A stretch of 64,000 nt of DNA from Brevibacterium permense (GTDB lineage: Bacteria; Actinomycetota; Actinomycetes; Actinomycetales; Brevibacteriaceae), in the NCBI RefSeq assembly GCF_013280495.1, contig NZ_JABSSX010000005.1:186001-250000 (forward strand). The letters are read 5' to 3'. The position numbers and the translations under genes were made by a program. Positions within the stretch are counted from its first letter, which is position 1. Each line of letters opens with the position of its first letter. Of the stretch, positions 1-59,402 are shown in pieces. The notes beneath the pieces are model-generated. The model did no database searches and was not told the DNA's origin. It worked only from the letters and a program-made list of their open reading frames with translations.

Positions 1-32
1 CCAACCATATCCTACGCTGATGATCAAGCTCA

Positions 33-81
33 TACGGTCCAATATGGACGGTATGGTACGGACTATAGGGAACTATAGGGA
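33..81. promoter_or_regulatory. Candidate operator/promoter region of the Mo-hydroxylase operon
   Basis: An inverted repeat TACGGTCCA-ATA-TGGACGGTA (33-53, one mismatch) is followed by two abutting copies of ACTATAGGGA (62-71 and 72-81). The second copy runs into the ribosome binding site GGGAGAGG of the first gene. Placement just before a catabolic operon fits a regulator site, but no regulator gene is visible in the window; it may lie upstream. Confidence 0.4.
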
Positions 82-90
82 GAGGATCGC

Positions 91-2556
91 ATGGACGCGA
101 CCGCCAAGGGCCCGGGCCGTCAGGTCACCCAACCGCTTACCAAAATCCCCGCGACATCTGATGGGCGCATAACCGGCTCACGAATCGAGGATCCGCCGCT
201 TGTGACCGGGCAAGGCCGGTTTCTCGATGATCTCGATCCGCTACCTGGCACATTGGTCGCCGCGATCGTCCGCAGTCCTCATGCGCATGCCAAAATCCGG
301 AAAGTTGACCTAACCCGCGCCAGGTCTCATCCGGGCGTCGCCGCCGTCATCGGACCAGAAGAGGTTCTTGAGACCCTCAAACCCTTTCCGTTGTCTCTAC
401 GCACGAATATGCCTTACTACCCGACTGGGACGGATAAAGTCCGCTATGTCGGTGAGCCAGTGGCGGTTGTCGTTGCCACAGACCGCTACACCGCGGAAGA
501 CGCCGCGGAGCTCGTTCGAGTCGATTACGATGTCCTCCCCGCAGTCGTTGATACCAAAAAGGCGGCCAATCCCGACAGCGCTGTCCTTCACGAAGGTGCG
601 GACAGCAATATCGCCAGCGACCGGAGCTTCACTTTCGGTTCGGTTGATGACGCCTTTGCCCGCGCCGCACACGTAGTCAGCGAGGAGTACAAGTTCCCGC
701 GCTATTCCTCCACGCCCATGGAATGCTACTCCGTCATCGCCGAATGGCGTGATGAATCCACCGGGCCCCAGATCACCGCCTATGCGAACTTCCACGGCCC
801 CTTCTCCATCGTTCCCATTCTGGCCGGCGCACTCGGAATCTCGACTGCCCAACTGCGGATCATCGTCCCGGCGGATAACGGTGGAAGCTTCGGTATCAAA
901 TCCGGGGTCTACCCCTATATCGCCCTCATGGCCCTTGCCAGTCGACATGCTGGCAGACCGGTGCGATGGACCGAGGACCGTATCGAACACCTGCTTTCTA
1001 GCTCAGCAGGTTCAGATCGAATCATGCGTTTCAAGGCTGCTGTATCCGCAACAGGCACTGTTGAGGCGTTGGACGTGGACTTCCAGGAGAACGTCGGCGC
1101 TTACCTCCGTCCGCCAGAACCTGCCACGCTGTACCGCTGTTTCGGCAACATCACCGGCCCCTATGGAATTGACGCTGTGCGCATGAGGGCACGGGCCGTC
1201 GTCACCAACAAGGTGCCCACAGGCCTCAACCGTGGATTTGGCGGGCAGCAACTCTACTTTGGGCTGGAACGATTGATGGACAAAATCGCTGTCACGGTAG
1301 GCAAAGACCCCCTGGAACTCCGGCGAACCAATGCCATCCCGACATCAGCGTTCCCCTATGCCACTCCCACAGGAGGGATTTACGACTCGGGCGATTATGA
1401 AAAGGCCTTCGCAATGCTCACTGAGAGCGCTCAATATGAGAAGTTGCGGGCCGAACAGCAAGCAGCGCGGGAACGCGGTGAGATCATGGGCATTGGCATA
1501 GCCGCTATCGTCGAGCCCTCAGCGACGAACATCGGTTACATCGCTCTCGCCACCCCGCAGGACGAGCGGGTTCGCGGCCGGGACAAGTCTGGTTCCACCG
1601 AACACGTACGAGTCAGCGTTGACCCCCAAGGCGTCGTTTCGGTGCTGCTAGGCACCGTCCCGCAGGGGCAAGGGCACGCGACCGTCGCGCGCGAGATTGT
1701 AGCCAACCAGCTCGGTCTATCTGTCGAACAGGTGGTTCCCAAGATCGACATGGATACCGCGACTACGCCGTGGACGATCACGACCGGCAGCTACTCCTCG
1801 CGATTCTCGCCACTGCTCACGTCAGCGCTCGTAGAAGCGACCGACCGAATCGCGGCAACCATCAAAGTGGCGGCCTCCGTCCTCCTTGCCGAAGACCCGA
1901 CGGAACTGGAACTTGCCGATGGCGAGGTACGAGTCACAGCGGATCCTCAACGATCCGTCCTGTTCCGCCATGCTGCCGGCCTCATCCATTGGGACCCGGG
2001 ATCGCTTCCTGATACCTTCGAGGCCCAGCTCAATGCAGAAGCTGCCTTCACCCCACCGGAATCAACTGCGGCCTCAAAAACAGACCAAATCAACTCCTCG
2101 CTGTGCTACGGCTTCGTCCTCGAGCTAGCCGTTGTGCGCATCGATCCGGAGACGTTGGAGATCGCAATTGAAAAAGTCTTCTCCGTTCACGACCCCGGCA
2201 CCGTACTCAACCCAGTCCTTCTCGAGGGTCAGATACACGGCGCCATGGTGCATGGGCTCGGCGGGGCGATGTATGAGGAGATGTTCTACAGCGAGTCAGG
2301 ACAGCCTACCTCCACTTTCATGGACTACCTCGTCCCTACCTCGGCAGAGGCCGCCTTCCCGTTGACGAGCGAAACCTTCGAGACCCCGTCGCCGCTGAGT
2401 CGACTTGGCGCAAAGGGCGCGGGTGAAGGGAGCAGCATGAGCTTTCCAGCGGTAGTCGCCAACGCAGTATCGGATGCGCTGGCTCCCCATGGCGTGCAAA
2501 TTACCTCACTTCCTTTGCACGGCAATGTCATCCACGAACTCTTGTCCAACAGCTAA
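91..2556 (+). CDS. Xanthine dehydrogenase family molybdopterin-binding large subunit (HmfA-like, putative 2-furoyl-CoA dehydrogenase)
   Basis: This 821-residue protein is the catalytic molybdenum-cofactor subunit of a xanthine-oxidase-family hydroxylase. The hammerhead domain lies at about residues 30-150 (GRFLDDL, RSPHAHAKI), followed by cofactor-binding domains with GGSFGIKSG near 264, LNRGFGGQQ near 378 and the catalytic-Glu segment GAKGAGEG near 772. The active-site signature of true CO dehydrogenase large subunits (AYRCSFR) is absent, so CO oxidation is unlikely. The start at 91 has a good ribosome binding site. It opens a same-strand operon with a crotonase, the FAD and iron-sulfur subunits, a CoA ligase and a transporter. 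That context favours hydroxylation of an aromatic or heteroaromatic acyl-CoA, best matching 2-furoyl-CoA; 4-hydroxybenzoyl-CoA-reductase-like or nicotinate-type substrates are alternatives. Confidence 0.85.
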   Translation: MDATAKGPGRQVTQPLTKIPATSDGRITGSRIEDPPLVTGQGRFLDDLDPLPGTLVAAIVRSPHAHAKIRKVDLTRARSHPGVAAVIGPEEVLETLKPFPLSLRTNMPYYPTGTDKVRYVGEPVAVVVATDRYTAEDAAELVRVDYDVLPAVVDTKKAANPDSAVLHEGADSNIASDRSFTFGSVDDAFARAAHVVSEEYKFPRYSSTPMECYSVIAEWRDESTGPQITAYANFHGPFSIVPILAGALGISTAQLRIIVPADNGGSFGIKSGVYPYIALMALASRHAGRPVRWTEDRIEHLLSSSAGSDRIMRFKAAVSATGTVEALDVDFQENVGAYLRPPEPATLYRCFGNITGPYGIDAVRMRARAVVTNKVPTGLNRGFGGQQLYFGLERLMDKIAVTVGKDPLELRRTNAIPTSAFPYATPTGGIYDSGDYEKAFAMLTESAQYEKLRAEQQAARERGEIMGIGIAAIVEPSATNIGYIALATPQDERVRGRDKSGSTEHVRVSVDPQGVVSVLLGTVPQGQGHATVAREIVANQLGLSVEQVVPKIDMDTATTPWTITTGSYSSRFSPLLTSALVEATDRIAATIKVAASVLLAEDPTELELADGEVRVTADPQRSVLFRHAAGLIHWDPGSLPDTFEAQLNAEAAFTPPESTAASKTDQINSSLCYGFVLELAVVRIDPETLEIAIEKVFSVHDPGTVLNPVLLEGQIHGAMVHGLGGAMYEEMFYSESGQPTSTFMDYLVPTSAEAAFPLTSETFETPSPLSRLGAKGAGEGSSMSFPAVVANAVSDALAPHGVQITSLPLHGNVIHELLSNS

Positions 2557-2583
2557 CCCGACTACAAAAAGGAATCACAGACC

Positions 2584-3363
2584 ATGGCACTTACTGGTGG
2601 AGAAATTCGACTGGACCGCAGCCACGACGGACGCGTTGCGAACTTGACGCTTTCACACGGTCGCTACAACATCGTCACGATGGAGATGCGCAGCGTGATG
2701 AGCGAGCGTTTCGCGGAAATCAATGCGGATCCGCAGATTCAAGTGGTAGTAATTCGTGGGGAGGGTGATCACTTCACCTCCGGCGGCGACATTAGTGGGT
2801 TCATAGAAGTTGAGCCCTATGAGCTGACTGATCTTGGTCAGGACATCACTGCACCGGCGCGTTCTCCCAAACCAGTGATTGCGGCGGTGGATGGATACTG
2901 TTTCGGCGTCGGTTTTGAGCTGGCTTTGGCAACCGACATTCGGCTGGTCACTGATCGCACACAGTTTGCACTACCGGAGATGCGGCTCGGCATGATGCCA
3001 GGAAGCGGCGGCACCCAGCGTTTGGCCCGCCTCGTCGGGCTTTCGCGCGCGAAATACCACGTGCTCACTGCCGCCCGGATCAACGCGCAACAGGCACTCG
3101 ACTGGGGCCTTGCCCCCTCGATCTCGGCAGGTGCTGAGGCGTTGGCTGAAGAAGTGGAACGGGTCGTCCAGACCCTGCTTGGTTACTCACCAATCGCACT
3201 GCGCACGGCTAAGGAAGTTCTCGACCGAGGCGTCGACGGCCCACTGGCTACCGGCGTAGAGCTCGAGCGCAAATCGTACGCGATGCTGCGCTCGACCCAC
3301 GACTTTGCCGAGGGAGTTGCTTCGTTCAACGAAAAGCGCACTCCCACCTTCGAGGGCCGCTAA
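2584..3363 (+). CDS. Enoyl-CoA hydratase/isomerase family protein (HmfE-like acyl-CoA hydrolase candidate)
   Basis: A 259-residue crotonase-fold protein. The oxyanion-hole segments are HFTSGGDISGF (about residue 62) and GYCFGVGFELALATD (about 102), followed by the LPEMRLGMMPGSGGTQRLARLVG helix region. It sits between the large and FAD subunits of the Mo enzyme, which ties it to the same substrate. In the characterised furoate pathway a crotonase-family protein (HmfE) hydrolyses 2-oxoglutaroyl-CoA. The AAPAR..KPVIAA..GYCFGVGFEL stretch resembles that group as I remember it, but this is inference. A hydratase for another CoA ester is the alternative. The start ATG follows AAAAAGGAATCACAGACC. 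Confidence 0.75.
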   Translation: MALTGGEIRLDRSHDGRVANLTLSHGRYNIVTMEMRSVMSERFAEINADPQIQVVVIRGEGDHFTSGGDISGFIEVEPYELTDLGQDITAPARSPKPVIAAVDGYCFGVGFELALATDIRLVTDRTQFALPEMRLGMMPGSGGTQRLARLVGLSRAKYHVLTAARINAQQALDWGLAPSISAGAEALAEEVERVVQTLLGYSPIALRTAKEVLDRGVDGPLATGVELERKSYAMLRSTHDFAEGVASFNEKRTPTFEGR

Positions 3364-3364
3364 C

Positions 3365-4267
3365 GTGAAGGCCGCACCCTTCGCCTACGTTCGTCCGACC
3401 CGGTTGCAGGACGCCGTCACGGAACTTGGTTCCGCCCAGCACGGTGGCGGCAAGGTCATCGCCGGCGGCCAATCCCTGGTACCCGTACTGGCTATGCGGC
3501 TGGGCCGCCCAAGTACCTTGGTGGACATTACCCGAGTGGAGGAACTCACTCACATGACAGTGGATGACCAGTGCCTGCGCGTGGCGGCAGCAGTTCGCCA
3601 ACGCCGGGTCCAGAGAGAGGCATCACAGCTGGTGCCTTTGCTTGGGCTGGCGCTACCGTGGGTCGGCCATCGCGAGATCCGGAGCAGGGGCACAGTGTGT
3701 GGCAGTCTTGCCCACGCAGATCCTTCCGCCGAAATGCCCGCGGTGGCCATGTCACTTAATGCCACGGTTGAAGTCACCGGTCCCAACGGCCGGCGACAGG
3801 TGAGCGCGGCTGATTTCTTCACTGGCGCGATGGCCACGGTCACCGAGCCAACCGAAATCGTCACATCCGTGTCGTTCCCGATCGCGTCGTCCGACGAGGG
3901 ATACGGATTTGCCGAGATTGCTCGTCGGCATGGGGACTATGCCATCGCCGGGGTTGCTGCGCGCGTGCGGTCGACATCTGGCGCAGTGGTAGAGGCCCCT
4001 ATAACCTCTTTTGGAGTCTCTGATAAGCCACAACTACGCGACATGAGCGGTGCATTACAAAGGGCCGTCGACTCCCTGGGCGACCCAGCCGCTCCCACCT
4101 CGGAAATTACCAACGCATTGGAAGAACCTGCCCACGCGATGGCCGAAGACGTCGTCACCACGGCTGGCGACTCACACGGCTCCACGGCATACCGAAAACG
4201 GCTCGTTCGCGTCCTCGCCGCCAGAGAACTCGCGCGGGCCTATCGGTCGAGTCTGAAAGGTGCCTAG
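3365..4267 (+). CDS. FAD-binding subunit of xanthine dehydrogenase family enzyme (CoxM/HmfB-like)
   Basis: A 300-residue medium subunit that passes electrons from the iron-sulfur protein to the final acceptor through FAD. The N-terminal FAD motif GGKVIAGGQSLVPVLAMRLGRP is at about residues 28-49, and a second flavin motif, TVCGSLAHADPSAEMP, is at about 111. The chosen start is GTG at 3365, one base after the TAA of the preceding gene. An in-frame ATG at 3305 lies inside that gene and would add 20 atypical residues. The stop precedes the next ATG by two bases, so the subunits are probably translationally coupled. Confidence 0.87.
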   Translation: MKAAPFAYVRPTRLQDAVTELGSAQHGGGKVIAGGQSLVPVLAMRLGRPSTLVDITRVEELTHMTVDDQCLRVAAAVRQRRVQREASQLVPLLGLALPWVGHREIRSRGTVCGSLAHADPSAEMPAVAMSLNATVEVTGPNGRRQVSAADFFTGAMATVTEPTEIVTSVSFPIASSDEGYGFAEIARRHGDYAIAGVAARVRSTSGAVVEAPITSFGVSDKPQLRDMSGALQRAVDSLGDPAAPTSEITNALEEPAHAMAEDVVTTAGDSHGSTAYRKRLVRVLAARELARAYRSSLKGA

Positions 4268-4269
4268 CC

Positions 4270-5526
4270 ATGACCATCAGATCCATCGCTTCATCCCTAG
4301 GACACACGATCGCTCCCAGCCGGAAGCCTCGCGCGGAGGACGTACCATTGCGGGTCGCCGCCGACGAGGCAGTAACCGTAAGCTTTACGGTTAACGGCCG
4401 TCCGGCCACCGTCCAAGTGGCACCGCGGGTGACTCTTTCCGACGCGTTGCGCGATCATCTCGGCCTCACGGGAACGCACATCGGCTGCGAACACGGTGTC
4501 TGCGGTATGTGCACGGTGATCGTCGACGGTGACGCTGCCCGCGCGTGCCTACTGCTGGCCTGCCAACTAGAAGGTTCTGAGATTATCACCGTCGAAGGGT
4601 TGGGGAAGCCTGATGACCTCCATCCGCTTCAGGCATCCTTTTCGGATCACCACGCTCTCCAGTGCGGATTTTGCACGCCTGGAATGCTCATGAGCTCCTA
4701 TGACCTACTCAAGCATAAGCCCGGGATTTCGGCAGAGGATCTGCCCGACCAAATGTCCGGAGTGCTATGCCGGTGCACGGGGTATCGCCACATCATGGAT
4801 GCAGTCGCTGACGTCTCCGAAAGCTACCCCGGTGGAATTCCAGGGCCCCGCAACTGCGGCCACGCCGCGCTGTTGCCGCGCACGTCGACCGGCGGCGGCT
4901 CAGCCGGCGACGGTGGACATGAAATCGCCGCCGCTGAGGGTCCGAAAGAAATTCATGTTCCTCAGAGTGAGCCAACCGTGACGATCGACGTCGCGAGTGA
5001 AGTCGCCGCAAGTGTCGACGAACTTTGGGTGGTAATCGACGACACCGAACGGATGGCCCGTTGCCTACCCGGAGCAGAGCTGGTCGACGACTTTGGAGAC
5101 GACAAGTATCTGGGGCGCATTCAGGTTGCCCTCGGGCCCGTCAAGCTCTCCTTCGTCGGCGACATACACGTTACTGAGCGTGACCCGGATTCTCATTCGC
5201 TACGCGCTCTCGCTGAGGCGAACGATCCCAGCGGCGGCACCGTACAAGGTGTCGTCCAGCTTGAGATCGATCCGTCGGGAGAAGGAAGCATCATCAATGC
5301 GCACGCCGAGATGCATATGACCGGTCGGATCGCCCAGTTCGGCAGATCGTTGGCGGACGACGTCAGCAACGACATGTTCAACCAATTCACTGCCGCCCTT
5401 GACGCCACCGCGCGGGGCGAAGAACCGGAGGTAGGCGGCGCTCCCCCAAGCGCAGTCAAGATGGCTACCAGGCTCGTATTGGCCCGGGCACGGGCTCTCG
5501 TACAGCGCATCAAGAGAAAGGAATGA
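4270..5526 (+). CDS. Fusion of [2Fe-2S] small subunit (CoxS/HmfC-like) with a CoxG-type SRPBCC domain
   Basis: A 418-residue two-part protein. Residues about 36-185 are the iron-sulfur subunit. The plant-type cluster cysteines are C73, C78, C81 and C93; the second cluster uses C132, C135, C167 and C169 (CGFC...CRCTG). After a Gly/His-rich linker (about 190-235), residues about 238-390 form a polyketide-cyclase-like domain of the CO dehydrogenase subunit G family (VASEVAASVDELWVVIDD, CLPGAEL). A basic C-terminal helix rich in Arg and Lys follows. CoxG proteins are linked to membrane recruitment of the enzyme, so the fusion may hold the complex at the membrane near its electron acceptor; that is inference. 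The small subunit alone is usually about 150-170 residues. Confidence 0.85.
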   Translation: MTIRSIASSLGHTIAPSRKPRAEDVPLRVAADEAVTVSFTVNGRPATVQVAPRVTLSDALRDHLGLTGTHIGCEHGVCGMCTVIVDGDAARACLLLACQLEGSEIITVEGLGKPDDLHPLQASFSDHHALQCGFCTPGMLMSSYDLLKHKPGISAEDLPDQMSGVLCRCTGYRHIMDAVADVSESYPGGIPGPRNCGHAALLPRTSTGGGSAGDGGHEIAAAEGPKEIHVPQSEPTVTIDVASEVAASVDELWVVIDDTERMARCLPGAELVDDFGDDKYLGRIQVALGPVKLSFVGDIHVTERDPDSHSLRALAEANDPSGGTVQGVVQLEIDPSGEGSIINAHAEMHMTGRIAQFGRSLADDVSNDMFNQFTAALDATARGEEPEVGGAPPSAVKMATRLVLARARALVQRIKRKE

Positions 5527-5529
5527 TCA

Positions 5530-7125
5530 ATGGAGATCGGCCGAACACTAACATGGGCAGCGGAAAGATTCCCCGATCGGATTGCCTTCGCGGGTTCTCG
5601 TCGGATGACTTATCCCGAGTGGGACGAGCGTACCAATCGAATTGCCAATTCGATGCTCGCCTTGGGGGTGAAGCCAGGGGACCGTGTTGCGACCTTTCTG
5701 AGCAACTCCGAGGTGATGGCTTCGACACACCTGGCATTGCAAAAGCTGGGCGCAATGTCCACGCCCTTCAACATCCGGCTCTCGGCACCAGAGTTGGCCT
5801 ACTGTCTCGAAAATGCCGAACCAACTGTCATCGTCTGCGACGATCTGGCCTCCGGCATCACGCAGGACGCCCTAAAGAAGTCTACTCCTAGTGCCACGAT
5901 GCTCCACGCCGGGACCAGCCCGATCGAGGGTGCTGCAGATTTCGAAGCCACCGTGGCAGAGGCCGACACTGCACCTCCCGGTATCAACGTGAGTGAATCA
6001 GACGCCAGTGTCATGCTTTACACGTCAGGGACCACAGGCAAACCGAAAGGCGTCCCACGAACTCAGCGCAACGAGTTCGCAGCCTCAGTTGCTCACATCA
6101 TGCAGGCTCAGTACGCGTCCGGTGAGTCCACGCTGGGAGCTATGCCGATGTACCATACCATGGGTCTGCGCTCCCTCCTGTCGATGGTCATCGTCGGAGG
6201 AAAGTTCGTCGAGATGCCAGTGTACGACCCGGAACGTGCCATCGAACTGATCGAGGCAGAGCGAATCTCGGCACTATATCTCGTACCAACTGCCTTTTGG
6301 GCTCTCGCTCAGACCGGAAAGTTGAAGCACGTAGCCTCCACTGTACGCAAACTAGCTTTCGCCGGCGCCGCCATGACCTCGACTCTGTGCCAAAAGCTCG
6401 AGAAAGAAATCGTGCCCGAGGTATTCGTCAACCACTACGGGTCGAGCGAAATATATACCTTCGCCGTCGAGGACAAAGCCTCCAGAAAGCCAGGCAGCGC
6501 CGGACGAGCCGGAATGCTGTCCCAGCTGCGGGTAGTTGACCCAGAGCCTGCAGCTTCGCATACTCCTCTTCCGACGGACGTCGTTGGCGAGATCGTTGTT
6601 TCATTAGACTCCGACGAAGCATTTTCCGGCTATTGGCGTCGGCCTGACGCAAATGCAAAAGCGATACGCGGTGAACGTTGGTACCACACAGGCGACCTCG
6701 GTCACTTCGACGAAGACGGAGATCTCTGGGTGGACGGTCGTGTCGACGACATGATTATCACCGGGGGAGAGAACGTCCATCCCATTGAAGTCGAGGACAT
6801 CCTAAGTCGCCACCCCGACATCGCTGAGGTGTCGGTCGTCGGGCTCAAGGACGAGAAATGGGGACAGGCGGTGACCGCATTCGTCGTTCCTGAAGAGGAG
6901 AACGAGGATCCGCAGGTCTTTGCTGAACGTATCCTCGAATGGACTCGCACCGAGGCCCCCCTCTCCCAGTACAAACGTCCCAAACGTGTTCTCGTGATTG
7001 CCTCGATCCCGAAGAGCCCGGTGGGCAAGATTCTTCGCCGGGAGTTGGTCGCTGGCGCTTATATCCTCAAGGGCGGTACCGGCAGTGATGCCAGTCCTGG
7101 CCATCCACCCGTTGAGACCGTCTAG
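5530..7125 (+). CDS. AMP-dependent acyl-CoA ligase (HmfD-like candidate furoate-CoA ligase)
   Basis: A 531-residue ANL-superfamily enzyme that would activate a carboxylic acid with ATP and CoA. The P-loop-like motif LYTSGTTGKPKGVP is at about residues 162-175, the HYGSSEIY segment at about 302, the YHTGDLGHFDEDG hinge at about 386, and the catalytic lysine region SPVGKILRREL near 497. The ATG at 5530 is three bases after the preceding TGA. Position between the Mo hydroxylase and a carboxylate transporter indicates that the hydroxylase acts on the CoA ester made here. The substrate is not readable from sequence; 2-furoate is the best context-based guess. Confidence 0.8.
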   Translation: MEIGRTLTWAAERFPDRIAFAGSRRMTYPEWDERTNRIANSMLALGVKPGDRVATFLSNSEVMASTHLALQKLGAMSTPFNIRLSAPELAYCLENAEPTVIVCDDLASGITQDALKKSTPSATMLHAGTSPIEGAADFEATVAEADTAPPGINVSESDASVMLYTSGTTGKPKGVPRTQRNEFAASVAHIMQAQYASGESTLGAMPMYHTMGLRSLLSMVIVGGKFVEMPVYDPERAIELIEAERISALYLVPTAFWALAQTGKLKHVASTVRKLAFAGAAMTSTLCQKLEKEIVPEVFVNHYGSSEIYTFAVEDKASRKPGSAGRAGMLSQLRVVDPEPAASHTPLPTDVVGEIVVSLDSDEAFSGYWRRPDANAKAIRGERWYHTGDLGHFDEDGDLWVDGRVDDMIITGGENVHPIEVEDILSRHPDIAEVSVVGLKDEKWGQAVTAFVVPEEENEDPQVFAERILEWTRTEAPLSQYKRPKRVLVIASIPKSPVGKILRRELVAGAYILKGGTGSDASPGHPPVETV

Positions 7126-7137
7126 CAGGGAGACATC

Positions 7138-8460
7138 ATGTCCACGCCCCACAACCAAGACGCACCATCGTCTGTTGCGAGAAACCGGCTCATCGAGCGT
7201 GGCCCCGGTTTCAGGTCCGGTCTTCGCAGCTTACCCAAGCACCTCAACCTCGCCACGTTCGGTGCTGCCATCGTAGCGGCTATCTTCGGTTGCACAGGTC
7301 CCGCGCTCGTCGTGATCAAAGGCGCCCAGGACGGAGGTCTCACACCTGCCCAGAGCGCATCGTGGATCTTCGGGATCTATGTTTTCGGTGGTCTGATCAG
7401 TCTGGTGATGGCCCTTTACTACAAACAGCCGATCACAGGCGCGTACAGCATTCCGGGAGCGGTCCTCGTCGTCGGGGCGTTGCAGGAGTACACGTTCGCA
7501 GAAATGATAGGAGCATATCTTGCGGCTGGCCTGATCGTCCTTATCCTTGGATTGACGGGTGCCATTCGAAAGGTCATTACTTGGATCCCCTTCCCTATAG
7601 TGATGGCCATGATAGCTGGGGCCCTCATCCGATTCGGCACCGCCGTCGTCGACTCGCTCCTGACCGCGCCCATTGTTGTTGGTGCGGCTATCGTGGGCTA
7701 CTTCCTCCTGTCTCGCTTCATCAAAGCGATTCCTGGTGTGCTGGGGGCTCTGGTGTTCGGAAGTATCGCAGCAGCAGTCACCGGCTCCTACGGGTCTCTT
7801 GAAGGCGGCGTCGGACTCACGTCACCGGAACTGGTAGCCCCGGCGTTCAATATCGGAGCGATCCTTGCAGTGGGAGTGCCACTGGCGCTCCTGGTCATCG
7901 GTGCGGAGAACACCCAGGCGATGGGTGTGATGATGGCTGAACGATACCGCCCGCCGTTCAATGCCATGACCATAATCAGCGGCATCGGCGGTCTCCTCGC
8001 GCCGCTCTTTGGAGGGCACAACGCAAACATCGCCGGCCCGATGACCGCAATATGCTCCTCCGAGCAAGCCGGCGAGAATAGGGACGGACGCTACGTGGCC
8101 TCCGTGCTGAATGGCATTCTCTTTTGCCTCTTCGGTGTCTTCGCAGGCGTTGCTTTAGCCCTAGTCACTGCTTTGCCACCGGAGTTGACCGCTACGCTGG
8201 CCGGCCTCGCCATGATTGGCGTGCTATTGTCAGCGTTCCAATCAAGTTTCGCTGAGAAGCGATTCCAACTCGGCGCGTTCGTAGCCCTCGTTATAGCGAT
8301 GAGCGGTGTGACCTTGTTCGAGATCTCCGCTCCCTTCTGGGCGCTGATCGGTGGGGTGCTGACCTCATTGATACTGGAAACAAACGACTTCCGTGTTCGT
8401 GACAAAACGGATGCTGCGGACATGAGCCACGTTCCTCCAGCTACCGAGGAAGCGCGCTGA
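7138..8460 (+). CDS. BenE-family carboxylate/proton symporter
   Basis: A 440-residue polytopic membrane protein with about 12 hydrophobic segments starting near residue 40. The family-typical stretch GGHNANIAGPMTAICSS is at about residues 287-303. BenE proteins import benzoate with protons. Here the neighbours form an acyl-CoA hydroxylation pathway and no ring-cleaving dioxygenase is present, so the cargo is more likely the substrate of the adjacent CoA ligase, for example 2-furoate. The start ATG follows CAGGGAGACATC. The C-terminal tail is hydrophilic and presumably cytoplasmic. Confidence 0.82.
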   Translation: MSTPHNQDAPSSVARNRLIERGPGFRSGLRSLPKHLNLATFGAAIVAAIFGCTGPALVVIKGAQDGGLTPAQSASWIFGIYVFGGLISLVMALYYKQPITGAYSIPGAVLVVGALQEYTFAEMIGAYLAAGLIVLILGLTGAIRKVITWIPFPIVMAMIAGALIRFGTAVVDSLLTAPIVVGAAIVGYFLLSRFIKAIPGVLGALVFGSIAAAVTGSYGSLEGGVGLTSPELVAPAFNIGAILAVGVPLALLVIGAENTQAMGVMMAERYRPPFNAMTIISGIGGLLAPLFGGHNANIAGPMTAICSSEQAGENRDGRYVASVLNGILFCLFGVFAGVALALVTALPPELTATLAGLAMIGVLLSAFQSSFAEKRFQLGAFVALVIAMSGVTLFEISAPFWALIGGVLTSLILETNDFRVRDKTDAADMSHVPPATEEAR

Positions 8461-8553
8461 ACAGAGAAGGCTCGTGAATGGTCAGACCCCGGTGGGGTCA
8501 CGTTGGCAAGGTACAGAGCAACTCCATGCTTCAAAGTAGAACGGAGTGACGCA

Positions 8554-9684
8554 TTGCGTGAAATCTTGAACGATATCCGTGCTTGGACGGAGCCGTTCGC
8601 TGTTGCGACTGTCATCCGGACTTGGAAGTCGTCACCACGTGCACCCGGGGCGGCGATGGCAGTCAACAGCGCGGGAGAAGTGGTTGGCAGTGTGTCCGGA
8701 GGTTGCGTAGAAGGAGACTTGTATCTTCGTTGCCAAGAGGCACTGGCCACAGGAACCCCAGCAGTAGTCCGCTACGGTGTGAGCGACGACGAGGCCTTCG
8801 AGATTGGGCTCACCTGCGGAGGCGTTCTCGAAGTGTTCATTCACAGGATCGATCCCAACCTGCACCCGATAGAGAAACTGGCGGCGGCCGTCGACGTACG
8901 TGAACCGGCGGCGGTTGCCACGGTTGTCGTAGGCCCCAACGTTGGGTCCCAAGTGTTGATCGTTGGAGGCGAATGCTACGGCTCAACCGGACACGCGCCT
9001 CTGGATGAAGCCGTGGTGGCAGACGCATTGGGACTCCTAGAGCAGGGAGCAAACAGCCTGCTTCACCTCGGCTTCGAGGGGGAGCGACGCAAAGAAGACG
9101 TGTCGGTTTTCGTCGAGTCTTTTGCAACGCCACCACGCATGCTGATTTTCGGAGCGATCGATTTCGCTGCCGCGTTGACCGAGCTTGGATCGTTTCTCGG
9201 ATATCATGTCACGGTGTGCGACGCTCGGCCGATATTCACAACGGCTGCACGGTTTCCAGCAGCAGATAATGTAGTCGTGGAGTGGCCACATAGGTACCTC
9301 AACCAGGTCCAAGTTGACCGTCGAACGGCCATCTGTGTCCTCACCCATGATCCGAAGTTCGACGTGCCCGTTCTGGAAGAGGCTCTAAAGACGCACGCTG
9401 GATACATCGGGGTGATGGGCAGTCGGCGTACTCACGCCGACCGCGATAAGCGGTTGCGCGAACGGGGTATCACCGAGGCACAGCGTGACCGCCTGTCGTC
9501 TCCTATCGGACTGGACCTTGGGACCTGCACCCCCGAGGAAACGGCGATCTCTATCTGCGCAGAAATCATTGCTCAACGTACAGGGGCAACTGGTAGGCCC
9601 CTTTCAGAGTTGACTACCTCGATCCATCGACCGAAGCCGAGCAGATCAAATCCGATATCTGGCCTAGCTCAACATCAACCATGA
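8554..9684 (+). CDS. xdhC: XdhC/CoxI family molybdoenzyme maturation protein
   Basis: About 376 residues. The N-terminal XdhC_CoxI domain has SSPRAPGAAMAV and SVSGGCVEGDL; the C-terminal Rossmann-type domain has the stretches RMLIFGAIDFAAAL, TVCDARPIF, GYIGVMGSRR and GLDLGTCTPEETAISI. XdhC proteins bind molybdenum cofactor and help load its sulfurated form into xanthine-oxidase-family enzymes, here presumably the island hydroxylase. I chose TTG at 8554, preceded by ACGGAG; a TTG at 8503 would add 17 residues. The family normally ends near the PLSELTTSIHR segment, so the last 17 or so residues and the stop may come from the adjoining decayed IS element. Confidence 0.85.
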   Translation: MREILNDIRAWTEPFAVATVIRTWKSSPRAPGAAMAVNSAGEVVGSVSGGCVEGDLYLRCQEALATGTPAVVRYGVSDDEAFEIGLTCGGVLEVFIHRIDPNLHPIEKLAAAVDVREPAAVATVVVGPNVGSQVLIVGGECYGSTGHAPLDEAVVADALGLLEQGANSLLHLGFEGERRKEDVSVFVESFATPPRMLIFGAIDFAAALTELGSFLGYHVTVCDARPIFTTAARFPAADNVVVEWPHRYLNQVQVDRRTAICVLTHDPKFDVPVLEEALKTHAGYIGVMGSRRTHADRDKRLRERGITEAQRDRLSSPIGLDLGTCTPEETAISICAEIIAQRTGATGRPLSELTTSIHRPKPSRSNPISGLAQHQP

Positions 9685-9689
9685 ACGGG

Positions 9690-10745
9690 GACGGACCCTG
9701 GGCACCTGGGTCAAACCCGAGAGAAACCGACGCCGCGTCGACGGTGACCCCACGGGCCCGTTGAACGAGGACGAACGGGCTGGACTGCCCCGATTGAGGC
9801 GGGAGAACTTCGATCTGAGACTGGACAACGAGTTCCTGGGAAAAGCGGCCGCCTTCCTCGCGTCGAAGCCGCAAAACAAGAGAAATTCGAACTGATGGAT
9901 TCGGGGGAAGGCTCGGTACGCGATTCACCGGATGGCATAACTCCTTCAGGTGACGAAATCCGGGTACTACGCGTGGAAGAAGCGCCGGCAAGCCGGACCA
10001 GCGAAACGCGGCAGTGTGCAACGGAGCTTTGATAGGCAAGGCGGGGCGGTCTACGCGGAGTCTGGTGGCGTCTACGCCGCACCGCAGGCGGCAGCGCAAC
10101 TGGCTGGACAAAACGTGTGCGTGGATGAGACGACGGTCACGACATCGCTACGTGGGCAGGGCCTCGAAGAGATCAGCCCGCGCAGGTTCAAGCCAGCTAC
10201 GACGCTGCCGGTAGTGGTGACTCATCACATCCCGGACCTCGTGAAACGGGTCTGGGATGTGATGGGTTGGATGCCCCGCGGGTTAGCGACATTACGTATT
10301 GGCGCACGTGGGATGGGTTCGTGTATTTGTGCGTCATCCGCGATGGGCGCTCAGGCCGAGTGTTTGGGCGGACGATGGTTGCCAGACAGCATTCTGACCT
10401 CGTGGAACGGCCGTTGACGATGGCTCATAAGCTACGAGAAATGGCTCCAGATGACGTCACTTTCTATGCCGACAAAGGAGCGCAGTACACGTCAGCGCAG
10501 TTGCATCAGGCGTCGGTCGAGCTGGCCCCAAGCAATCGGCGCGCCGGACTGGGGTGTGTTGGGATAGCGCAATGTCGGAGCCGCTTTGGTCGTTGTTGAA
10601 ACCGGAGTTCTTCGAGCGGCGAGTCTGGCAAACTCGGGCTGAGGCGATGCGGGAAGTCGCTCCCTGGATCGAGGTGGTCTACGACCGGCGGGGTGAGCTA
10701 CTGCCGCATCGGTTTGCGGGGCGCCAAAGTTGTGGAACTCAGGTC
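9690..10745 (+). mobile_element. Decayed IS3-family insertion sequence (orfA and orfB remnants)
   Basis: Transposase fragments are spread over all three forward frames. At about 9699-9896 an orfA tail reads LNEDERAGLPRLRRENFDLR then LDNEFLGKAAAF. At about 9905-9990 an orfB start reads YAIHRMA-stop-LLQVTKSGYYAWKK. From about 10267 come integrase-core fragments DITYWRTWDGFVYLCVIRDG and FYADKGAQYTSAQL, and an end piece EPLWSLLKPEFFERRVWQTR to about 10745. Multiple frameshifts and stops rule out activity. I could not define the terminal inverted repeats or a target duplication. It separates xdhC from the mocA-like gene and marks past transposition in the island. Confidence 0.85.
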
Positions 10746-11024
10746 TGATGCCCGGTCTTCGATTTCTCCCCCGGCAAAAGGTGGCGCAGTCGACGTCCAT
10801 CACCGGCAGGTGTACCGGCTCGGCGGTACCCTCACGCGACATACAGATTTGCCTAATGGAGGAAGGGCGGGCGCCTGCCAATTGAGAAACTCATCAGTTC
10901 ACATATCGGACTCGAATCAATCAACGAAGCTATGGATTCGCGCGCTGATAGCAAAACAATTCTTCAGATCATCCGCTTGTGAGACAGATCCGAGGGAACA
11001 CAGGGCGCGCGGAGCAATGAGAGC
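10746..11024. other. Non-coding stretch between IS remnant and mocA-like gene
   Basis: No convincing gene, hairpin or repeat is seen here. The base composition is mixed, with an AT-richer part near 10870-10980. It probably consists of further decayed IS or flanking DNA. Confidence 0.5.
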
Positions 11025-11674
11025 TTATGGGCGGCCGTCGTTCCGTTCGGGAAGATTAATCCCTCGTGCCGCAGCCTGAGCCGGCGTATCCACATCGAAA
11101 GGTCCGTTCGCGCCTGGCGTCAGAAGGTCTCCGCCTTCGATCAGTGTGACAGAATCGGAAGCCTCTCTGAATAATCGTTTAGCTCCCGAATCGCCGCCAC
11201 ACGCATCGATCGCTCGAGATATCCAATTACGACCGAACATTACCGGGTGGCCCGGAACCGAGCCCCATGTGCAGCGTGCTAACACACCGTCGGTAGCGTT
11301 CTCTATCAGCCGGGGGTAGATCTCCGCTGGAGTGTCTGTCAGGTCCACCAATGTCACTACGGCAACGTTCGAGTGCGGATCAACTGCCCGCAATCCGGTC
11401 TGCAGAGACCGGCCCATTGCCATCGCATGGTCGAGGTTAAGTATCGTCTTAACGCCTTCCGGAATCAGAGATTGCGCTTGGTGGGCTCCCGCGCCGAGAA
11501 CCACGAGGATCTCAGCTGGATCTACTGCAGCCAGCGCCCTGAGGTGATGAGAAAGCAGCGACGTGCCATCATTCACCCTCCGCAGCACCTTCGGAGTCCC
11601 CATACGGGACCCCTTCCCTGCTGCCACACGATCATGCTGACGCGAGTTTCGAAATCCGTCACATCAGTCACCAT
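11025..11674 (-). pseudogene. MocA/MobA-like molybdenum cofactor nucleotidyltransferase, apparent 1-base frameshift near its start
   Basis: The open part (GTG at 11627 to 11025, 200 residues) begins AAGKGSRMGTPK, the nucleotide-binding motif of MobA/MocA-type NTP transferases, and continues with LVDLTDTPAE and GHPVMFGR. The family motif normally starts a few residues earlier (LAAGxGSRMG). The upstream piece is present in another frame: ATG at 11674 reads MVTDVTDFETRVSMIV and stops matching at about 11627. One added T there would join it to LAAGKGSRMG. MocA attaches CMP to molybdopterin to make the dinucleotide cofactor of xanthine-oxidase-family enzymes, fitting the island. Either a real mutation or a sequencing error could explain the shift. 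Confidence 0.7.
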
Positions 11675-11772
11675 AGATCGTCTCACCCTGTGGCACTGCC
11701 GCGGCAATATTAGCCGCCCAGCCATAGACATCCTCGGCGTCTTCTGGTGAAGTTGAATCAGGAGCTAGGAAG

Positions 11773-12696: not shown

Positions 12697-12846
12697 ACGG
12701 CGGCGCATCAGGCCCGGACAGTCTGCGCTCAGCAGCGGTCGGCCTCTCTGCGCCCGGTCGCGGACTACGCATCTGCGCCCGCCGCCACAGGCACGCCTGC
12801 GAACCCAACAGCCTGGCACACGCTCCACCGACTAGACTTGCGTCCC

Positions 12847-13725
12847 ATGGGAAAGAAGTCGAAGCGCTCCAAGGAAGAACTCATCGCCAAACGCCTCGCC
12901 AGGGCGCAGGCCACGGCATTCGTCGCGCGTCCGTTCGCGGACCTGCCGTTCGAAGCCGACCTCATCTGCCTGCGTGAACTCGTGCCCGCGGCCACCGCGA
13001 CCGCGAAGCTCACCGAGGAGTACGGCGGTCATGAGGTCACGATCACCTCGCTGCTGCCTGCCGCGTGGCAGGCGTGGCGCCGCGACGACGGTGAGATCCT
13101 GGCCGGCATGCAGGTACCCGTGTCATCGACCGATGCCTCCCGCGATGTCGCCCGCGGCATCCTCGCCGCCGCCGAAGCGGAACCCGGCACCTCCATCGAG
13201 GCGACCACCGAACCCGGTGAGGGCCCGCGTCTGCAGGACATCCTCGACACCTCGCACCCGTTCGACGTCCGCGTGCTCGAGAACTTCGACTACTGGGCCC
13301 TGCCCGAAGCCGAGTCCGATGCCGACGTCGCCGCCGCCCTTCAGCAGGCCAACGACTCCGTGGCCCCGACCGAGAAGCTCGCCTCCGTCGACTCCGCCTA
13401 CTGGACCGAGATGTCCGGCCGCACCTACGTCCGCTGGGCCCGCCCCGAAGGTGAGGACCGCGTCGTCGATGCGTTGGCCCGCCTGCAGGCCGAGAACGCC
13501 AACGACCTCGGCGGAATCGGCACCTTCCTCGGCTACTTCCGCGCCCACGGCATCATCGTCCCCGTCTGGGAACTCGAGTTCGGCACCCAGGTCGACGACG
13601 TCGAAGAGCCCATCGCCGCGTTCGGCAAGCGCCTCGACGAAGCGCTGAACACGACCGAGCCGATGAGCACCGAGGCCCGCCGCGTCCGCTCGGGCATCGT
13701 GTCCCGCCAGCTGACCATCCACTGA
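12847..13725 (+). CDS. DUF5926 family protein
   Basis: A 292-residue protein with a basic N-terminus (MGKKSKRSKEELIAKRLAR) followed by an acidic soluble part without membrane segments. It matches the actinobacterial DUF5926 family as I recall it; the function is unknown. The start ATG 12847 lacks a Shine-Dalgarno sequence. A -10-like TAGACT (12833-12838) ends eight bases before it, so a leaderless transcript is likely. A strong hairpin follows at 13744-13782. Confidence 0.75.
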   Translation: MGKKSKRSKEELIAKRLARAQATAFVARPFADLPFEADLICLRELVPAATATAKLTEEYGGHEVTITSLLPAAWQAWRRDDGEILAGMQVPVSSTDASRDVARGILAAAEAEPGTSIEATTEPGEGPRLQDILDTSHPFDVRVLENFDYWALPEAESDADVAAALQQANDSVAPTEKLASVDSAYWTEMSGRTYVRWARPEGEDRVVDALARLQAENANDLGGIGTFLGYFRAHGIIVPVWELEFGTQVDDVEEPIAAFGKRLDEALNTTEPMSTEARRVRSGIVSRQLTIH

Positions 13726-58139: not shown

Positions 58140-59402
58140 TCAGCCCATGAAGTCGAGGATGCGGTCGATGGCTTCGGCCGTGCGGTCCGCTCCGACGGCC
58201 AGCGACAGGCGCACCGAACGGGGGCCGTCTACGGAGTCGAAGTCGTCACCGGGGGCGAGCGCGACGCCGGTGGCGTCGAGCACCTGCGCGCACCACTGGC
58301 CGGCGGTGGCGAGTCCTGCGCGGTCGAGGATGTCGTCGACTCTCGCGTACATGTAGAAGGCGCCGTCGGGTGGGGCCATCTCGCCGAAGCCGAGGTCGGC
58401 AACGGCACCCAGCACATGTTCGCGTGCACCGGCGAACGAAGCCACTGCGGCCTCGCATTCGGCATAGGACTCGTCCGTGAAAGCCGCGACCGCCGCGTAC
58501 TGCGCCGGAACCGGGGCGCACAGGGAGAGGTTGCCGGTGACGTTCTGGGCCGGGGCGACGAGCGCTTCGGGCAGGATCGCCCAGCCGAGGCGCCAACCGG
58601 TCATGCCCCAGTATTTGGAGAACGAGGAGATGACGATCGCATTGTCGTCGTGGGCGAGTGCGCATTCTCCGCGGGTGCCGATGTAGCTGATGCCGTGGTA
58701 GATCTCGTCGGAGATCACCTGCACCCCGTTGTCCCGGCACCACTCGACGAGGCGGCCGAGCGCCTCGGGGCCGATCATCGTGCCGGTCGGGTTCGCAGGC
58801 GAGGCGAGCATGAGCCCCTTGAGCGGGGCCTTCGCATGGGCGGCGGCCAAGAGGTCGACGGTGGGCTGGAACCCTTCGTCGGCACCGCAGTCGAGTTCGA
58901 CGACCTCGCAGCCGAGTGCCGCGAGGATGTTCTTGTACGCGCCGTAGCCGGGTCGGGCCAGGGCCACCCGGTCGCCGACGTCGAAACAGGTGAGGAACGT
59001 CGTCTGGAAGGCGCCGGAGGATCCGGTCGTCACGGCGATGCGGTCGGGTGCGATGTCGAGTCCGTACCAGTCGCGGTAGTGGGAGGCGATGGCTTCGCGC
59101 AGTTCGGGGATGCCGAAGATCGGCGAGTATCCGAGTCCGGTGCCGTCGGTCATGACCTCGGCGGCACGGGCGAGCACGGGGCTGGGCGCGCCCTGGGTCG
59201 GTTCGCCCAGACACATGGCGATCGTGTCGCGACCGGCGCGCTGCATCTGCCCGACGGTGGCGACGATGCCCATCGCGGCGAACGGTTTGACGAGCCCGGA
59301 CCGGGCAGAGGCAGCCGGGATGTTTTTGGCGGAGGCGGCCGGACCGGACACGGCGTTGGCACGGGTGGTGGGGTCCGCCTCGGCGGGGGTGGATGAGGTC
59401 AT
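58140..59402 (-). CDS. PLP-dependent aminotransferase (class I/II)
   Basis: A 420-residue fold-type I enzyme. After a disordered leader of about 35 residues come CLGEPTQGAPSPVLARAAEV, GYSPIFGIPELREAIASHY, ASPANPTGTMIGPEAL, VISDEIYHGISY and SSFSKYWGMTGWRLGW with the PLP lysine near residue 263. It resembles aspartate/aromatic-type aminotransferases; the amino donor is unknown. ATG 59402 is chosen; it lies five bases after the AhpD-like gene, indicating an operon. Confidence 0.83.
   Translation of the reverse strand: MTSSTPAEADPTTRANAVSGPAASAKNIPAASARSGLVKPFAAMGIVATVGQMQRAGRDTIAMCLGEPTQGAPSPVLARAAEVMTDGTGLGYSPIFGIPELREAIASHYRDWYGLDIAPDRIAVTTGSSGAFQTTFLTCFDVGDRVALARPGYGAYKNILAALGCEVVELDCGADEGFQPTVDLLAAAHAKAPLKGLMLASPANPTGTMIGPEALGRLVEWCRDNGVQVISDEIYHGISYIGTRGECALAHDDNAIVISSFSKYWGMTGWRLGWAILPEALVAPAQNVTGNLSLCAPVPAQYAAVAAFTDESYAECEAAVASFAGAREHVLGAVADLGFGEMAPPDGAFYMYARVDDILDRAGLATAGQWCAQVLDATGVALAPGDDFDSVDGPRSVRLSLAVGADRTAEAIDRILDFMG

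Follow-up and report, generated by a model that had tools for sequence, protein, structure and literature searches.

Among the main inhibitors encountered in lignocellulose processing are furfural and furoate. The hmf (furoic acid) pathway is already known from Cupriavidus basilensis HMF14, Pseudomonas putida Fu1, and other bacteria (PMC6678421, PMC12064950), and UbiD represents the decarboxylase family that acts on 2,5-furandicarboxylic acid (FDCA) in such pathways. Our literature search on actinobacterial furoate catabolism returned nothing useful, and no paper describing an actinobacterial form of the operon was found. We analyzed a 64,000-nt window of Brevibacterium permense (contig NZ_JABSSX010000005.1, positions 186,001 to 250,000), to which all coordinates below refer, negative values lying to the left of the window on the same contig. 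Its left end carries what we read from the sequence, with a probability of roughly 0.86, as a horizontally acquired, actinobacterial-type hmf operon for the conversion of 2-furoate to 2-oxoglutarate. A first-pass annotation had proposed the same conversion, and the five enzyme counterparts in hmf clusters, the HmfA and HmfD clades, the HmfE residue signature, and the transporter subfamily all agree with it.

Genes were identified by open reading frame (ORF) calling and hidden Markov model (HMM) scans. They form a single, tight plus-strand operon (91-9684) in the order hmfA-E-B-(C+CoxG)-D-benE-xdhC, with gaps of at most 42 nt and an overlap between the crotonase and FAD-subunit genes. The products are an HmfA-like molybdopterin large subunit of a putative furoyl-CoA dehydrogenase (821 aa; 91-2556; PF02738/PF20256), an HmfE-like crotonase-fold hydrolase (259 aa; 2584-3363), an HmfB-like FAD subunit (303 aa; 3356-4267), an HmfC-like [2Fe-2S] subunit with an appended CoxG domain (418 aa; 4270-5526), an HmfD-like, AMP-binding 2-furoate-CoA ligase (531 aa; 5530-7125), a BenE-family importer (440 aa; 7138-8460), and an XdhC-family Mo-enzyme maturation factor (393 aa, start codon uncertain; 8503-9684). 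None of the seven ORFs is interrupted, and their active-site motifs are conserved. The first-pass annotation had listed these seven products together with a MocA-like protein, and all eight were located by ORF calls and HMMs; the list required amendment in two places, as the [2Fe-2S] ORF is fused to CoxG and the MocA-like frame looks broken. Its claim that the region lacks a ring dioxygenase and a thiolase held, neither being present in the island. The CoxG fusion, a PadR regulator with its operator, the HmfE hydrolase signature, and the exact insertion site are additional to that account.

The nearest annotated relatives, found by tblastn in plasmids, include Geobacillus pHTA426, Dinoroseobacter pDSHI01, Priestia pNCT2_4, and Cupriavidus pinatubonensis p2, all with hmf-like gene sets, the ligase being absent at that place in the Priestia plasmid. 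UbiD-type genes also occur in the Geobacillus and Dinoroseobacter clusters. Identities to the counterparts in the Geobacillus, Dinoroseobacter, and Cupriavidus clusters are 45-47% for A, 43-47% for E, 34-39% for B, 49-56% for C, and 45-47% for D. Our survey covered 89 hmf loci for gene content and CoxG state, and 74 of them hold genes A-E all together, including the ligase and the crotonase, as does the window.

The HmfA tree comprised 71 rows (45 hmf sequences, CoxL, 4-hydroxybenzoyl-CoA reductase (4-HBCR), and 24 paralogues from genomes also bearing hmf clusters), and the CoxL and 4-HBCR outgroup sequences both exceed their own curated cut-offs. All 45 hmf rows fall on one side of a branch with an SH-aLRT support of 99, apart from CoxL, 4-HBCR, and the paralogues, and the window HmfA lies inside an actinobacterial subclade with a support of 100. 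In the HmfD tree, the hmf clade, which includes the window ligase, also has a support of 100 and is separated from two benzoate-CoA ligases that score over the cut-off; a Geobacillus paralogue encoded on the same plasmid also falls within the clade. Both are quick trees, supported by SH-aLRT values only. Thus, the large subunit and the ligase, which the first-pass annotation had considered might cluster with another characterized clade, are both inside hmf clades.

These placements bear on two other assignments of the molybdenum enzyme. A divergent aerobic CO dehydrogenase, or an aldehyde or glyceraldehyde dehydrogenase, with unrelated neighbors would account for the CoxG domain and for the best NCBIfam scores of the large subunit, which come from CO dehydrogenase group 5 and glyceraldehyde dehydrogenase. 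However, all large-subunit scores are about half the cut-offs (425-469 bits against 950-991 for the CO dehydrogenase models), the clade is separate from CoxL, and the co-occurrence of genes A-E described above does not suit unrelated neighbors. Where CO dehydrogenase has the loop AYRxSFR, the window protein reads PTGLNRGFGGQ, like the majority of HmfA proteins of hmf loci, which bears out the earlier observation that the subunit lacks the CO dehydrogenase signature; the subunit does retain the GAKGxGEG motif and, with it, the catalytic Glu. We regard this assignment as extremely improbable. A pathway for a six-membered-ring acyl-CoA, resembling 4-HBCR or a nicotinoyl-CoA enzyme, would share the superfamily, the BenE importer, and the CoA ligase, but the 4-HBCR model TIGR03194 gives 373.5 bits against a cut-off of 994.55, the window HmfA is 28% identical to true 4-HBCR and belongs to a different clade, the ligase is far from the benzoate-CoA ligases (25% identity), the BenE lies outside the group of other genomic BenE proteins, and ring-reduction or ring-cleavage genes are absent from the island. 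This alternative is very unlikely. The CO dehydrogenase and 4-HBCR readings were both rejected on the scores and clades and, for the former, also on the loop.

The crotonase-fold protein carries a residue signature of its own. In an alignment of 75 HmfE sequences, all (75/75) retain the first of the two catalytic Glu residues of enoyl-CoA hydratase (Glu132 here), whereas none (0/75) has Glu at the second position, which is mostly Asp, Tyr, His, or Asn; the FGV(G) and GSGG motifs are invariant. The four solved relatives shown, in hydratase-type alignments, have Glu at the second position. The loss of the second catalytic Glu fits a hydrolase rather than a hydratase, and HmfE is annotated as a hydrolase (PMC12064950). 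For Pseudomonas umsongensis GO16, PMC12064950 lists a distinct hydrolase, hyd, with a putative ring-opening role. The island has no hyd-type gene, so ring opening would be spontaneous or would proceed via HmfE or a host enzyme.

The importer scores over the Pfam BenE cut-off and falls just below that of TIGR00843 (199.8 against 203.4 bits). In the BenE tree, the window protein, entered as the genome's own copy (L134), groups with 24 hmf-linked BenE proteins (support 99), and the remaining BenE proteins encoded in these genomes lie elsewhere; the Priestia copy falls outside this group. The first-pass annotation had taken the use of BenE as an extension of the pathway, but benE was already published beside hmf in 2019 for Pseudomonas pseudoalcaligenes CECT 5344, with suggested furoate import (PMC6678421), and it flanks hmf genes in 25 of 88 compared loci.

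By analogy with the characterized hmf systems, and with the pathway assignments of PMC6678421 and PMC12064950 Table 2, we infer the substrate and reactions as follows. BenE would import 2-furoate, which HmfD would convert to 2-furoyl-CoA. The Mo-enzyme HmfA-B-C, with its cofactor matured by XdhC, would then use water to hydroxylate the ring at carbon 5. The resulting 5-hydroxy/5-oxo form may open to 2-oxoglutaroyl-CoA, either spontaneously or with HmfE, which might thus also help ring opening, and HmfE would hydrolyze the thioester to 2-oxoglutarate and CoA.

The same chemistry, namely CoA activation, Mo-hydroxylation at C5, and hydrolysis, is expected for other five-membered heteroaryl carboxylates, chiefly thiophene-2-carboxylate or pyrrole-2-carboxylate, which would yield 2-oxoglutarate with sulfide or ammonia. 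The actinobacterial HmfA and HmfD proteins form separate, fairly deep branches, which speaks for such a substrate. On the other hand, none of HmfE, HmfA, HmfD, and BenE is replaced in comparison with the hmf clusters, related loci bear furan upper-pathway genes (UbiD/UbiX and aldehyde dehydrogenase), the island showed no gene for handling sulfur or amines, and a literature search on thiophene-2-carboxylate gave nothing relevant. We consider such a substrate unlikely.

Several points weigh against 2-furoate degradation. Identities of 34-56% to characterized-type proteins do not fix the acyl group, and the counterparts compared were those of the Cupriavidus pinatubonensis HN-2 plasmid cluster and other hmf loci, in place of C. 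basilensis HMF14 (HmfA-E, ADE20399-ADE20403). The literature yielded no enzyme, growth, or induction data for this strain or any actinobacterial member. The island contains no furfural oxidation genes and no UbiD was found in the host genome, so the substrate would be furoate itself, or furfural oxidized by other host enzymes; the use of FDCA or 5-hydroxymethylfurfural (HMF) via the HmfFG route is not expected in a host without UbiD. Lastly, since the mocA-like gene looks broken, maturation of the Mo cofactor may depend on host genes.

The operon belongs to an actinobacterial type. The genome collection contains the same operon in 12 other actinobacteria, with HmfA proteins 65-71% identical to that of the window, in Janibacter, Nocardioides, Amycolatopsis, Streptomyces, Pseudonocardia, Blastococcus, and other genera. 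The suggestion that an actinobacterial host would extend the pathway therefore stands insofar as we found no description in the literature searched, whereas the actinobacterial form is widespread rather than unique. Common to these loci are PadR (56-68% identity in 11 of 12; the contig of the twelfth is cut), the E-B-(C+CoxG) block, and HmfD. Janibacter shares the A-E-B-C-D order and is the sister of the window in both the HmfA and HmfD trees. Most other actinobacterial operons begin with hmfD, and among these benE adjoins the operon only in Halosaccharopolyspora. Prauserella (L022) has UbiX and aldehyde dehydrogenase genes downstream of the hmf operon, and another actinobacterial contig (L015) has UbiD, UbiX, and aldehyde dehydrogenase genes adjoining hmf genes. 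Separately, hmf genes in Firmicutes and on one actinobacterial contig (L004, L015, L029-L032) repeatedly have an R2-like ligand-binding oxidase as a neighbor, often along with alcohol and aldehyde dehydrogenases; this oxidase could conceivably take part in oxidizing furfuryl alcohol or furfural.

The PadR-family regulator (192 aa; PF03551, 42 bits) is encoded divergently on the minus strand, mostly to the left of the window (contig 185430-186008; it starts at position 8, and its first codons occupy 1-8). Between padR and hmfA lies a predicted PadR operator, the 25-nt near-perfect palindrome CATACGGTCCAATATGGACGGTATG (31-55). In most actinobacterial loci, related palindromes, the best being ACCATCTGAAACAGATGGT and ACGGTCCGAAATGGACGGT, rank as the best or near-best consensus matches; they are located between padR and the operon and often recur at 14-nt steps. 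As the consensus was drawn from the same sequences, this evidence is supportive rather than independent. The divergent PadR would act as a repressor of the operon at the palindrome, and might respond to furoate or its CoA ester. Additional operator-like sites were seen downstream of hmfC in Streptomyces (L017:7841) and Prauserella (L022:5892), which suggests a second putative transcription unit of the PadR regulon in these two genera.

In the HmfC fusion, Fer2/Fer2_2 domains occupy residues 39-179, and the CoxG match (PF06240, 43.8 bits against a cut-off of 22.2) covers residues 244-378 of a domain spanning residues ~237-386. The domain is closest to Mycobacterium smegmatis CoxG 8UDS, both in sequence (E=6e-17) and in Foldseek (rank 1, TM 0.88 by target); the 8UDS entry title specifies CoxG without its lipid-anchoring C-terminus. 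The AlphaFold model of the whole fusion has a mean pLDDT of 60.5 and is poor outside the CoxG domain, and we therefore make no claim about the arrangement of the 2Fe-2S part relative to CoxG. A basic C-terminal helix (residues 395-417) is predicted and basic tails occur in 13/13 fusions, but as candidate amphipathic anchors these tails have a hydrophobic moment no higher than that of shuffled tails.

Of the 89 loci, 51 carry CoxG as a fusion to HmfA, 13 as a fusion to HmfC, and 10 as a separate gene; in the other 15 it was not detected, several of these being on cut contigs. It is fused to HmfA in Proteobacteria and encoded separately in Firmicutes, and the HmfC-CoxG fusion coincides exactly with the actinobacterial clade (13 loci); two changes on the HmfA tree explain these states. 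Deep-branching alphaproteobacterial loci and one from Eremiobacterota (L059, L065, L092, L093, L035) have the A-E genes with no CoxG detected. These loci may use another electron acceptor or substrate.

According to PMC13240472, which cites Kropp et al. 2025, CoxG binds menaquinone and relays the electrons of CO dehydrogenase to the quinone pool. This analogy suggests that the HmfC CoxG domain may serve as a dedicated quinone shuttle for furoyl-CoA dehydrogenase, handing its electrons to the quinone pool. The odds seem about even for the broader proposal that furoyl-CoA dehydrogenase is quinone-coupled and that CoxG is its built-in, membrane-tethered quinone carrier, having moved in evolution between HmfA, a free protein, and HmfC. 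If so, furoate oxidation would feed electrons straight into the respiratory chain, with menaquinone or ubiquinone as the natural acceptor. The CoxG of the Geobacillus pHTA426 hmf cluster (L004:14400-14858) is identical to PDB 2PCS, a "conserved protein", except for the start residue, which points to electron transfer for furoyl-CoA dehydrogenase as the likely role of 2PCS. Neither of the two hmf papers searched for the term mentions CoxG.

Island boundaries were set by comparison with six sister species in which the site is empty: similarity runs to the xthA stop codon, breaks, and resumes at position 11678 before a RelA/SpoT-like gene, and the sister species have only 5-28 nt between the xthA stop codon and the relA-like flank. 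The insertion point thus lies between these two genes, and the whole island spans -1616 to 11677 (13,294 bp; 1-11677 inside the window). The earlier span of 33-11674 was right to within 3 bp at its right end, whereas the island begins 1.6 kb before the window. Its GC content is 59.3%, against 65-67% in the flanks, and no comparable HmfA large subunit was found in the 24 other congeners sampled. Terminal direct or inverted repeats were sought at the island ends and none were found, and megablast of the island against plasmids gave no match.

Decay of the island to a non-functional state is suggested by several remnants. At the left end (-1616 to -600; contig 184385-185430) lie part of an IS4/5-type transposase and the decayed C-terminal piece of a second XdhC, and decayed IS3-family transposase remnants (NF033516, E=1e-7, ORF 9950-10417) follow the operon on the plus strand (9690-10900). 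The MocA-like (MobA/MocA) molybdenum cofactor cytidylyltransferase ORF (minus strand, 11025-11627) starts inside its own first β-strand motif, and what is likely its upstream coding goes on in another frame (11025-11680). The gene thus looks frameshifted near its N-terminus, through either true decay or a sequencing error. However, the seven operon ORFs and the operator palindrome are intact, and the host genome has moaA for molybdenum cofactor synthesis; loss of function is highly improbable. Outside the island, a full-length homologue of the protein at 12838-13725, with 40% identity, occurs on a "Bacteriophage sp." record from human feces that carries no annotation (MT835771.1) and perhaps contains bacterial DNA, and ARAGORN reported a tmRNA at 58510-59092 that it starred and whose tag peptide is odd.

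Judged by the literature searched, the new elements are the actinobacterial operon type, the relocation of CoxG, the PadR/operator pair, and the 2PCS link. They define an actinobacterial hmf branch that occurs in Streptomyces, Amycolatopsis, Nocardioides, and others; this branch is compact and mobile, and seems to be under simple PadR/operator control. The recurring CoxG offers a specific hypothesis, open to testing, for the destination of the electrons released by furoyl-CoA dehydrogenase. The five enzymes and the inferred chemistry are those of hmfABCDE in C. basilensis HMF14 and its relatives, with identities of 39-56% to the C. pinatubonensis HN-2 counterparts. Compared with C. pinatubonensis, the order here is A-E-B-C-D, CoxG resides on HmfC instead of HmfA, PadR replaces LysR, and BenE replaces an MFS transporter; unlike systems of the C. 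basilensis type, the genome lacks an HmfFG-type UbiD. P. pseudoalcaligenes CECT 5344 resembles the locus in its adjacent benE, psfD (Mo-enzyme maturation), flanking mobile elements, and atypical GC content, but is proteobacterial, with an AraC regulator and the order A-B-C-D-E (PMC6678421). Geobacillus kaustophilus pHTA426 has the closest annotated HmfA in the plasmid set (47%) and also XdhC and MocA-like genes, and differs in its separate CoxG gene, UbiD, R2-like oxidase, moaA, modB, and regulator. The other actinobacterial operons share the closely related HmfA, PadR, and E-B-(C+CoxG), differing mostly in having hmfD first. The Mo-CO dehydrogenase of M. smegmatis (8UEM/8UDS) belongs to the same superfamily and supplies the closest CoxG match, whereas the large subunit of the window differs from it in clade and active-site loop, and CoxG is here covalently joined to the 2Fe-2S subunit.

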